Both the position numbers and the translations under genes were made by a program. Shown here piece by piece: positions 22,386 through 53,132 of a stretch of 64,000 bases of DNA. The first letter of the stretch is position 1. Every line of letters begins with the position of its first letter. Source of the stretch: an uncultured Halieaceae bacterium (GTDB taxonomy: Bacteria; Pseudomonadota; Gammaproteobacteria; Pseudomonadales; Halieaceae); contig CAJXNM010000012.1 of NCBI GenBank assembly GCA_913057135.1, positions 1-64,000 of the forward strand, written 5' to 3'. Under the pieces are notes generated by a model that saw only the letters and a program-made list of their open reading frames with translations, had not been told where the DNA came from and searched no databases.

Positions 22386-23732
22386 TTAACCCTCCTTCTC
22401 GATGCGCGTAAGGTTGTCGCGGAGCACCGGCCCGTACTCGTACTTACCGGGACAGACATAGGTGCACAACGCGAGATCTTCCTCGTCTAACTCCAGACAG
22501 CCCAACTGCTGTGCCGTTTGGGTATCTCCCACCAACAGCGCGCGCAACAGTTGCGTAGGCAGCACATCGAGGGGCATAACCCGCTCGTAGTTGCCAACGG
22601 GCACCATGGCGCGCTCCGAACCATTGGTGTTGGTGGTCATATCAACGGGCTTTAGTCCGAACCAACTGGATAGATAGATACCCATGACCGAGTGCTTCTT
22701 GGCACCGGGGGATAACCAACCCATGAAATCACGGTAGCGCCCTTCCGCCAGAGCAGTCACCTGCAGGTCGTATCGACCCAAATACGCCGTATCGCTTTGT
22801 ACCGCCCTGCCGCCCAAGACCGACCCCGATAACACGCGGGTTTCGCCGCCCCTGAGCTCACCGGCAGTCAATGCCTGAAGATCGGCACCCAGGCGCGCTC
22901 TAAGCAATCGCGGTTTCTCTACCTGAGGACCGGCCAAGGCAATCACCCGCGGGGTGTACAAAACACCGTCAAGGAACAGTCGGCCAATGGCAATAACATC
23001 CTGATAACCAATGTGCCAAGCCACTTTTTGCGTCGAAGCGCCCATCAGATGATGGATGTGGGTGCCGGGGAGTCCCGCAGGATGGGGACCTGCAAAGGTC
23101 TCATGCTGCAATCGTGGATGACTGCCCACAGGCAGCTGGGCATTGGGCGCTGAGCAGACATAAACGGGGCAGTTGGCCATCGCCGCAAGCACATCTTGCC
23201 CGAGGGCAAAGGCATCCCCCTGCTCTGCGATAATGAGCGCAGGGTCGGCGGCCAAAGGGCGAGTATCGATAGCGGTAATAAACAGACCCGCAGGATCGGT
23301 GCTGGGGCTGGGGACCTTGCTGTAGGGACGGGTTCGCAGGGCAGTCCACAGCCCACTGTTCACAATCTGCTCGCGGATGGCCGCCGCATCAAGTGCGCGC
23401 GCCTCCGCCGCGCTATGCTGCTTGAAGCTCACCGGCTCAATACTGTCATCGACTTCTATGACCAGCGATTGAAATACGCGTCGGGCGCCGCGATTGATAG
23501 CGACCACTTTGCCACTTGCCGGCGCTGTGTACACCACGCCATCGGTTTTTTTGTCGGTAAAGACTCGTTGACCACACTGGACAATATCGCCCTCGACCAC
23601 TTCCATGGTGGGTTTCATGCCAACGTAATCGGGACCGACCAGGGCGACTGTGCGAGTAGCCGCTGGTGTGTCGATCGTTTGCTCGGGCGCTCCCGAAATA
23701 GGGATGTCCATGCCGCGTCGAATTTTGATCAT
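22386..23732 (-). CDS. nqrA: Na+-NQR subunit A
   Basis: Peripheral cytoplasmic subunit of the sodium-translocating NADH:quinone reductase. The 448-aa product begins [14 protein letters not shown], as in Vibrio NqrA, with [36 protein letters not shown] and the late [12 protein letters not shown]. The ATG at 23732 has GGAAGAG just upstream and is chosen over the track's 23744. It is the first gene of the nqr run and is preceded by a long untranslated leader. Confidence 0.97.
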
Positions 23733-23947
23733 GTGCTCTTCCACATAGTGACAGTTCTGCGCTGATCAACCGGACACGGATTACCGCAACCGGATGACAC
23801 AACCGTTTGGGGGAGCAAGGAGACGTTTCATGGGCGCGTGTGGTCTACGAGATTCCCCCAAACCTCGCGGGCCGTGCACGATGCACAGGCCTAACCAACG
23901 TCAACCGGAGGCAATAGCCAGAGCGTCTAGGGCGCTCTTCGCCGGTC
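23733..23947 (-). promoter_or_regulatory. long structured 5' leader of the nqr operon, candidate cis-regulatory RNA
   Basis: From the putative start point to the nqrA ATG there are about 215 untranslated bases. In transcript order they hold a stem-loop at 23891-23870 (GGCC and GTGCA paired with TGCAC and GGCC, one bulge). A perfect 10-bp stem follows (GTTTGGGGGA / TCCCCCAAAC, 23863-23805) enclosing about 39 nt. The octamer TCCGGTTG occurs three times (23902-23909, 23787-23794, 23767-23774), and a hexamer version lies at 23800-23805. I see no coding potential. It does not match a riboswitch class that I recognise. The structure is seen directly; the regulatory role is inferred. Confidence 0.5.
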
Positions 23948-23953
23948 GGCGGA

Positions 23954-23982
23954 ATTGTAGCGGACCGGCGTGTTTGTGACTA
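23954..23982 (-). promoter_or_regulatory. putative sigma70 promoter of the nqr operon
   Basis: On the minus strand TAGTCA (23982-23977) and TACAAT (23959-23954) are separated by 17 bp, with 4/6 and 5/6 matches to the -35 and -10 consensus. An 8-bp GC-rich inverted repeat (23940-23947 with 23963-23970) overlaps the element. It could be the end of the gap transcript or an operator. Position relative to nqrA predicts a long leader. Confidence 0.4.
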
Positions 23983-23987
23983 CCTGA

Positions 23988-25472
23988 TCAGAGCGGGCCC
24001 GTATGGTCTTTAGGGTAGGTCAAGTAGTTAATACCCGCCATTTGCTCAAGAATTCGATAGACCTGACAGCTATAACCAAATTCGTTGTCGTACCAAAGGT
24101 ACAGGACAGCCTGCTGTCCATTGACAATAGTGGCTTTGGCATCGAAGACACAGGCCGAGCGGGACCCAACGAAGTCTGAGGAGACCACTTCGGGGGATGC
24201 GGAATAATCAATTTGCTTGCGCATGTCTGAATGCAGGGCGACGTTGCGCATGAACTCGTTGAGTTCTTCTTTTGTAGTGGCTTTCGTTAAGTTTAAGTTA
24301 AGGATAGCCATGGAGACATTCGGTGTCGGTACACGAATGGCATTCCCGGTAAGTTTACCCTCTAGCTGCGGCAACACCTTCGCTACCGCCTTTGCTGCCC
24401 CTGTTTCGGTCAACACCATGTTCAAAGGTGCCGAGCGACCGCGGCGCTCTGCCTTGTGGTAATTGTCAATCAGATTCTGATCGTTGGTGTAGGCATGCAC
24501 CGTTTCCACATGACCCGTCACAATGCCGAACTCATCATCAACCGCCTTGAGCGGTGGCACGATCGCATTTGTTGTACAGGATGCCGCCGAAATAATTTGG
24601 TCGTCATCGCCAATAATATCGCTGTTAATACCGGCAACCACGTTCTTGAGGTCGCCCTTACCGGGTGCGGTAAGGATCACCTTGCGCACACCTTTCGCCT
24701 TCAAGTGACGAGACAGTCCATCTCGGTCACGCCAGACGCCGGTGTTGTCAACAACAATACAATCGTCGATGCCGTAAGCGGTGTAATCGATCTCCTCGGG
24801 TGAATTGGCATAGATCACCTTCACCTCGTTGCCGTTCGCCACGAAGGATTGGCGCTCTTCATCGACCCTGATTGTGCCCTGGAAGGCGCCGTGAACCGAG
24901 TCGCGACGCAACAGGCTAGCCCGCTTCACCAAATCATCGGGGGCACCACCTTTGCGTACGACCACGGCACGCAGCCGTAAACTGGCGCCACCGTCGGTTT
25001 TAGCAATGAGAATTCGAGCCATCAGGCGACCGATGCGTCCGAAACCGTACAACACCACATCCACCGGCTTCTCAACGGGCGGGGTGGTATTGTTCACCAA
25101 AAAGCCCAGCTGCTGCTCGACATACTGCTCAAGGGACAGACCCTGGCCCTGGGCCTTGTCGAAATATTCCACCGCCAGACGGCCAACATCAACGTGGCCG
25201 GGGCCCAAATTCATCGCCACCATTTTTTGAATGACGGGTGCGGTCTCAAACTCTGACAGCTCATTTTGCTCAACCTGGCGCACGTAGCGATGGTTTTTCA
25301 TGATGTCGAGGACAGATTGGTTCACCAGTGAGCGGCCATAGATATAGCACTTGAGGTTGCGCTCTCGGGCCAGGCCACCCACCATCGGGATCATGGCTTC
25401 AGCCAACGCCTCGCGCTGCTTCCAGTCGGCGAAGTAATCGTCGGGCCGTTCACGTTTTCTCTGCTCGGTCAT
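23988..25472 (-). CDS. gap: long-form glyceraldehyde-3-phosphate dehydrogenase
   Basis: Catalyses reversible oxidation of glyceraldehyde-3-phosphate to 1,3-bisphosphoglycerate with NAD(P). The GAPDH core starts near residue 136, with the nucleotide loop YGFGRIGRLMAR. The catalytic Cys is about residue 299 (AASCTTNAIVPP) and the partner His about 326 (VETVHAYTNDQNL). About 130 extra N-terminal residues, largely helical and charged, precede the core. This extended form (near 490 aa) is known in Pseudomonas and other gammaproteobacteria next to mfd, as here. Many such proteins are thought to act in gluconeogenesis, but cofactor use cannot be read from the sequence. It is divergent from mfd. Confidence 0.93.
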   Translation of the reverse strand: MTEQRKRERPDDYFADWKQREALAEAMIPMVGGLARERNLKCYIYGRSLVNQSVLDIMKNHRYVRQVEQNELSEFETAPVIQKMVAMNLGPGHVDVGRLAVEYFDKAQGQGLSLEQYVEQQLGFLVNNTTPPVEKPVDVVLYGFGRIGRLMARILIAKTDGGASLRLRAVVVRKGGAPDDLVKRASLLRRDSVHGAFQGTIRVDEERQSFVANGNEVKVIYANSPEEIDYTAYGIDDCIVVDNTGVWRDRDGLSRHLKAKGVRKVILTAPGKGDLKNVVAGINSDIIGDDDQIISAASCTTNAIVPPLKAVDDEFGIVTGHVETVHAYTNDQNLIDNYHKAERRGRSAPLNMVLTETGAAKAVAKVLPQLEGKLTGNAIRVPTPNVSMAILNLNLTKATTKEELNEFMRNVALHSDMRKQIDYSASPEVVSSDFVGSRSACVFDAKATIVNGQQAVLYLWYDNEFGYSCQVYRILEQMAGINYLTYPKDHTGPL

Positions 25473-44620: not shown

Positions 44621-44730
44621 GGCGACTCGAGCAGCCGCACCCCGGCACCCGAATCAGTAACTACCGTTGCTCCCTTCCGGGCCTGGCGGGGTTCGCTACC
44701 TATCGCTGCGAGGGGACCACCCGAGTCACC
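44621..44730 (-). ncRNA. ffs: signal recognition particle 4.5S RNA
   Basis: The minus strand carries the conserved SRP domain IV core, GCCAGGCCCGGAAGGGAGCA, close to the E. coli CAGGUCCGGAAGGAAGCAGC tetraloop and internal-loop region. Flanking sequences pair as an elongated hairpin: GGTGACTCG at the 5' side pairs with CGAGTCGCC at the 3' side (9 bp with one G-U), and CCCC with GGGG further in. Ends are set by this outer stem, so each may be a few bases off. It binds Ffh to target membrane proteins. It sits directly upstream of dnaX, as in Pseudomonas. Confidence 0.92.
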
Positions 44731-49860: not shown

Positions 49861-49937
49861 CCGCTCGTAGCACAATTGGATAGTGCATCAGCCTTCTAAG
49901 CTGGCGGTTGCAGGTTCGAGTCCTGCCGGGCGGGCCA
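49861..49937 (+). tRNA. tRNA-Arg (UCU)
   Basis: A 77-nt cloverleaf. The acceptor CCGCTCG pairs with CGGGCGG (one U-G), and the D stem is GCAC/GTGC. The anticodon arm TCAGC-CTTCTAA-GCTGG has anticodon TCT, and the T arm is GCAGG-TTCGAGT-CCTGC. The discriminator is G and the CCA is encoded. It reads AGA codons. The 3' end is intact and borders the accessory-looking stretch. Confidence 0.95.
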
Positions 49938-52972: not shown

Positions 52973-53049
52973 TGGGGTGGCTGACGGGGATCGAACCCGC
53001 GACAACAGGAGTCACAATCCTGTGCTCTACCAACTGAGCTACAGCCACC
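52973..53049 (-). tRNA. tRNA-His (GUG)
   Basis: Minus-strand cloverleaf with acceptor GTGGCTG/CAGCCAC, D arm AGCTCAGTTGGTAGAGC and anticodon arm CAGGA-TTGTGAC-TCCTG (anticodon GTG). The T loop is TTCGATC, and the CCA is encoded. The extra G at position -1 and discriminator C typical of tRNA-His are present. It is 6 bp downstream of tRNA-Pro and is probably cut from the same transcript. Confidence 0.96.
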
Positions 53050-53055
53050 ATTGAA

Positions 53056-53132
53056 TGGTCGGGGAGGAGGGATTCGAACCCCCGACATCCTGCTCCCAAA
53101 GCAGGCGCGCTACCAGACTGCGCTACACCCCG
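53056..53132 (-). tRNA. tRNA-Pro (UGG)
   Basis: Minus-strand cloverleaf starting CGGGGTGTAGCGCAG, with anticodon arm CCTGC-TTTGGGA-GCAGG (anticodon TGG), T loop TTCGAAT and encoded CCA. The acceptor CGGGGTG pairs with CTCCCCG at six of seven positions; position 6 is opposed by T (T6-T67 mismatch). It is first in a two-tRNA unit with tRNA-His. Confidence 0.95.

Follow-up and report, generated by a model that had tools for sequence, protein, structure and literature searches.

The window analysed here, a stretch of 64,000 nucleotides, is part of a Luminiphilus (Halieaceae) genome, as judged by its nearest named nqrA loci, which belong to Luminiphilus MAGs, and its relatives are distant ones, the closest NqrA being 79% identical. 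The region of interest lies between gap and nqrA on the minus strand, with 255 nt from the gap stop to the nqrA start:

23988–25472, minus strand: gap, glyceraldehyde-3-phosphate dehydrogenase (NF006139 type), lying next to nqrA on its upstream side and on its strand
23954–23982, minus strand: sigma-70-like promoter TAGTCA-17 nt-TACAAT, read from sequence, with a likely start near 23947–23949
22389–23732, minus strand: nqrA, Na+-translocating NADH:quinone reductase subunit A (NCBIfam NF003759, 681 bits against a cutoff of 505)

The nqrA ATG at 23732 is consistent with the MIKI start of its relatives, and nqrA is the first gene of its operon, followed by nqrB, nqrC and nqrD. The gap-nqrA order is kept in all 30 genus loci of the first comparison set, with a spacing of 225–279 nt, and gap precedes nqrA in nearly all loci of a wider set that takes in other Halieaceae and extends as far as Halomonas and Pseudomonas. 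Distant NqrA matches of about 28–30% identity, in frames of about 525–550 residues, were seen in seven genus genomes, G002, G014, G021, G023, G054, G058 and G062; these may be RnfC, and in G014 such a match is the sole one to NqrA. Elsewhere in the window, genes for a small SRP RNA and for three tRNAs lie at 44626–44722, 49861–49934 and 52976–53132. Among the papers searched, none dealt with nqr in Luminiphilus.

The original prediction had placed a plausible promoter ahead of an untranslated region of about 215 nt, and both agree with the sequence. TAGTCA and TACAAT, 17 nt apart, occupy 23982–23954. In 47 genus leaders a −10-like hexamer, of which the window's TACAAT is one form while others include TAGAAT, TAAAAT and the like, stands in the corresponding position, 150–235 nt ahead of the ATG; a 48th leader (L047) is truncated by the end of its contig. 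In the window the leader would run from a likely start near 23949 to the ATG (about 217 nt). With the start set 12 nt beyond the first base of the hexamer, leader lengths would span 176–216 nt across the 47 genus leaders.

An 11-nt inverted repeat, a GC-rich hairpin at 23940–23970, overlaps the −10 box and so would not fall entirely inside the leader. Since the repeat sits 18–48 nt past the gap stop, it could be read as a terminator-like 3′ end of the gap transcript, with nqrA promoted elsewhere. We consider this very improbable: a search for terminator-like sites followed by a T run found none, and the repeat overlaps a −10-like hexamer whose position is conserved.

For comparison, the genus leaders were sorted by eye into clades A (n = 13, including the window), B (n = 19) and C (n = 15), which are groups by leader similarity and not a tree. 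The elements of the window's leader, from the 5′ end onwards, are as follows:

23902–23948, minus strand: three-way junction, predicted fold of a 50-nt piece, z −2.99
23942–23948 with 23902–23908, minus strand: helix P1, pair probability 0.99
23933–23938 with 23920–23925, minus strand: helix P2, predicted fold
23917–23919 with 23910–23912, minus strand: helix P3, predicted fold
23870–23891, minus strand: predicted hairpin GGCC-UGUGCAUCGUGCAC-GGCC, near the place of P4 in ten clade-A relatives
23847–23868, minus strand: predicted hairpin GCGAGGUU-UGGGGG-AAUCUCGU, whose loop holds the G-tract, shuffled-flank p 0.018 (window)
23805–23814, minus strand: C-tract UCCCCCAAAC, 10-bp complement of 23854–23863, p 0.001 (window)
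23765–23800, minus strand: predicted hairpin with octamer copies 2 and 3 as its arms, z −4.18, 0 of 200 shuffles
23733–23744, minus strand: ribosome-binding region GUGGAAGAGCAC before the AUG, read from sequence, predicted about half unpaired

Taken whole, these leaders are not unusually stable: the window's leader from its inferred start has an unexceptional folding energy (z −1.43), and mean z values are −0.67, −0.61 and −0.91 in clades A, B and C. Locally, the window's energy is exceptional in the 50 nt at the 5′ end and in the 36-nt hairpin formed by octamer copies 2 and 3. The junction topology is predicted at the same place in the window, in L008 and L018, in 14 of the 19 clade-B leaders and in 4 of the 15 clade-C leaders, as against about 1.6% of shuffles; it is not predicted in 10 of the 13 clade-A leaders. 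A junction model built solely from clade B picks out the corresponding position in L018 (E 4.6e-4 in 65 kb). Applied to the window, neither clade-B model gives a significant result: the best match of the 47-position model in the intergenic region (23903–23949, E 0.081 for 255 nt) is weak and suggestive only, and the 97-position model does not find the window. P1 pairing scored alone in clade A was not significant (Fisher combined p 0.098), and P1 counted on the combined alignment was too invariant to inform.

Covariation is clear in clade C, where, on a sequence-only alignment from which the structure was also derived, both partners had changed in 7 of the 38 pairs and 97.4% of cells were paired, neither value being reached in 500 shuffles. 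Covariation in clade B did not rise above shuffles on the sequence alignment; it is clear for clade B plus L018 on a model-fitted alignment, a kind of alignment that leans towards the structure. Support also exists for hairpin P4 of clade A, with a loop GCAA(A/G) in which GCAA is invariant, found 53–88 nt into the leader at ten clade-A loci (L009–L017 and L019). Across nine distinct clade-A relatives, aligned without gaps, 90.7% of cells are paired and the covariation score is 0.500 (0 of 500 shuffles), and the count of pairs changed on both sides does not exceed shuffles. The window, L008 and L018 are without the GCAA(A/G) loop, P4 being lost or altered there, and the loop of the window's own mid-leader hairpin differs.

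The originally proposed structured leader is borne out by features that recur in relatives, namely its position and length, the G-tract described below and, for some of the genus, the 5′-terminal junction, and by covariation in clade C and at P4 and, on the model-fitted alignment only, in clade B. A structure conserved ahead of a gene of coherent function, as riboswitches in general have, is seen in clades B and C and for P4, and extends to the window by topology and position only. The window's own case rests on its predicted fold, its position and the topology it shares. The clade-B model gives one match per genome, directly upstream of nqrA, in 20 genomes.

A G-tract at least five G long occurs in 47 of 47 genus leaders versus 6 of 88 other leaders (13 expected); such a tract would itself be expected in 29–40% of shuffles of the genus leaders. 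Its position is 64–75 nt into the leader in clade C, 67–70 nt in clade B and mostly 83–99 nt in clade A. The weight of the G-tract therefore lies in its constancy of place and presence, to which relatedness contributes. In 12 of the 13 clade-A leaders the tract is predicted in a hairpin loop. The shuffled-flank p is mostly near 0.018 for clade A (Fisher 1e-7 over ten leaders, ignoring relatedness), and the energy of the window's hairpin folded alone is unremarkable (z −0.61). Because the clade-A stems vary in sequence and register, no single column alignment could be used for this hairpin, and a column-by-column count of pairs is impossible.

A possible alternative partner for the G-tract lies downstream. 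The perfect 10-bp stem around 39 nt that had been noted originally, 23805–23814 with 23854–23863, is present and corresponds to the G-tract paired with the C-tract. CCC or longer occurs 36–53 nt downstream of the G-tract in all 13 clade-A leaders. Taken one leader at a time, the helix between the two tracts reaches significance in just two of them, the window (p 0.001) and L017 (p 0.042); in clade B the G-tract pairs with a nearby CCCC. No C-tract was found in the clade-C leaders listed, so a switch between the G-tract and the C-tract cannot be general.

The octamer that first drew attention to the leader, TCCGGTTG, does occur in three exact copies on the leader strand, at 23902–23909 (copy 1), 23787–23794 (copy 2) and 23767–23774 (copy 3). 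It had been called far above chance, which was not confirmed: although only 9 of 5000 dinucleotide shuffles of the 255-nt region contain a tripled 8-mer, so do 6 of 750 segments of 255 nt from the same 64 kb, and some are thus to be expected when scanning a sequence of this length. Comparison with 29 relatives found not one copy in any of them. In the predicted fold, copy 1 supplies the 3′ strand of P1, and copies 2 and 3 are the two arms of one hairpin, which they can form because CCGG is self-complementary; pairing copy 2 or copy 3 with the 5′ end instead of copy 1 gives a much less stable helix, and this alternative was rejected. No consistent energy signal was seen among relatives at the position of the copies-2/3 hairpin, nearest the start codon. 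The octamer is, on this comparison and on the predicted structure, species-specific, not conserved and largely accounted for by the fold. Between gap and nqrA of Halomonas sp. 25-S5 and H. alimentaria (L131 and L135) we observed 7–8 copies of an 8-mer, probably a tandem repeat.

A protein or small RNA might bind the octamer repeats or the G-tract, a reading to which we give little credence. The threefold presence of the octamer and the exposure of the G-tract in a predicted loop speak for such a site. The repeat-binding regulator site suggested by the original prediction already has the evidence against it, the octamer being species-specific, missing as an operator from all 29 relatives and buried in predicted helices; the G-tract could yet be such a site.

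As to how such a leader might act, no clear expression platform emerged: a terminator-like site was not found, and the ribosome site is predicted to be 50–64% unpaired on average in clades A, B and C, and is not consistently sequestered. Short reading frames are present, and none is alike among relatives by eye, so a leader peptide was set aside. With no platform, terminator or shared leader peptide seen, and with the clade-B model matching only at nqrA, the element would be a cis-acting leader RNA, one that might also sense a signal. In many Halieaceae other than Luminiphilus (L056, L063, L145, L149, L160 and others), a CTGTTCAAAATCAAA-like sequence occurs upstream of TATAATGCG, and the same nqrA upstream regions carry a CTGTAGGCAGATCGT-like sequence just ahead of the ATG.

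Two leader motifs upstream of nqrA have been published as riboswitch candidates: nqrA-II, a leader with four stem-loops directly upstream of nqrA in Pasteurellaceae, and a second motif in Marinomonas that is described as unrelated to nqrA-II (PMC11109978). The Luminiphilus leader resembles nqrA-II in being structured and just upstream of nqrA; it differs in that the nqrA-II model (RF04310) matched none of 57 genus genomes at E up to 1, a search in which the control genomes were silent too. The Marinomonas motif, compared by its published description alone, is likewise a leader upstream of nqrA, and Rfam gave no match to the Luminiphilus leaders. The Na+ riboswitch (DUF1646 motif) senses Na+ and controls sodium genes; its architecture is founded on a pair of extended helices, P1 and P2, and the paper that describes it makes no mention of nqr (PMC9337991); its family is in Rfam, yet it does not match the Luminiphilus leaders (the window and 12 loci). 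More broadly, none of 4227 Rfam families reached threshold in the leader of the window, and at the 12 nqrA loci, up to E 10, the three matches belonged to unrelated families and none lay inside a leader. The original remark that no known class was recognised agrees with this search.

These precedents raise the possibility that the leader is a riboswitch responding to Na+ or some other ligand, which would add one more class of nqrA leader to the two already published (PMC11109978). The element is structured, occurs in single copy upstream of nqrA and has helices that covary (clade C and P4), as a riboswitch might; no pocket is conserved across the clades, however, and a clear expression platform was not found, and we regard this reading as doubtful. 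Equally speculative is the proposal of an independent third nqrA leader RNA class through which marine Luminiphilus would sense Na+ or the redox state and adjust its sodium pump.

A passive 5′ untranslated region, with hairpins that guard the 5′ end and set the half-life of the mRNA without any signal being sensed, is a more serious contender, though one we think unlikely. In clades B and C, as in the window, L008 and L018, P1 starts at the likely 5′ end; predictions do not hide the ribosome site in a consistent way, and the leader architecture differs among the clades, a drift that is hard to square with a ligand pocket. What exceeds the needs of stability is the G-tract in 47 of 47 leaders and the GCAA(A/G) loop of P4 in ten clade-A leaders.

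We therefore favour, with some confidence, the reading of the region as an untranslated 5′ leader on the nqr mRNA, transcribed from a conserved promoter immediately past gap and forming a genus-specific, cis-acting structured RNA of Luminiphilus that is a candidate control element. The position and length of the leader, the G-tract and the helices that still pair in relatives are supported by comparison. Against this reading stand the shift in architecture from clade to clade and the ordinary folding energy of the leaders as wholes. Such a leader would act on nqr expression after the start of transcription, with mRNA stability or translation as the likeliest point of control. The 5′-terminal junction would hide the 5′ end, and the G-tract would lie either in its hairpin loop or paired with the downstream C-tract, as a pseudoknot or an alternative long helix. 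A change of partner would refold the RNA that precedes the ribosome site, and the balance between these states might be tipped by an ion, a metabolite, a protein, a small RNA or nothing at all.

Since dozens of genomes each carry a single such leader, both pairing and function are directly testable. A third motif in Luminiphilus, if it proves true, would suggest that control of the sodium pump by leader RNAs has arisen repeatedly.
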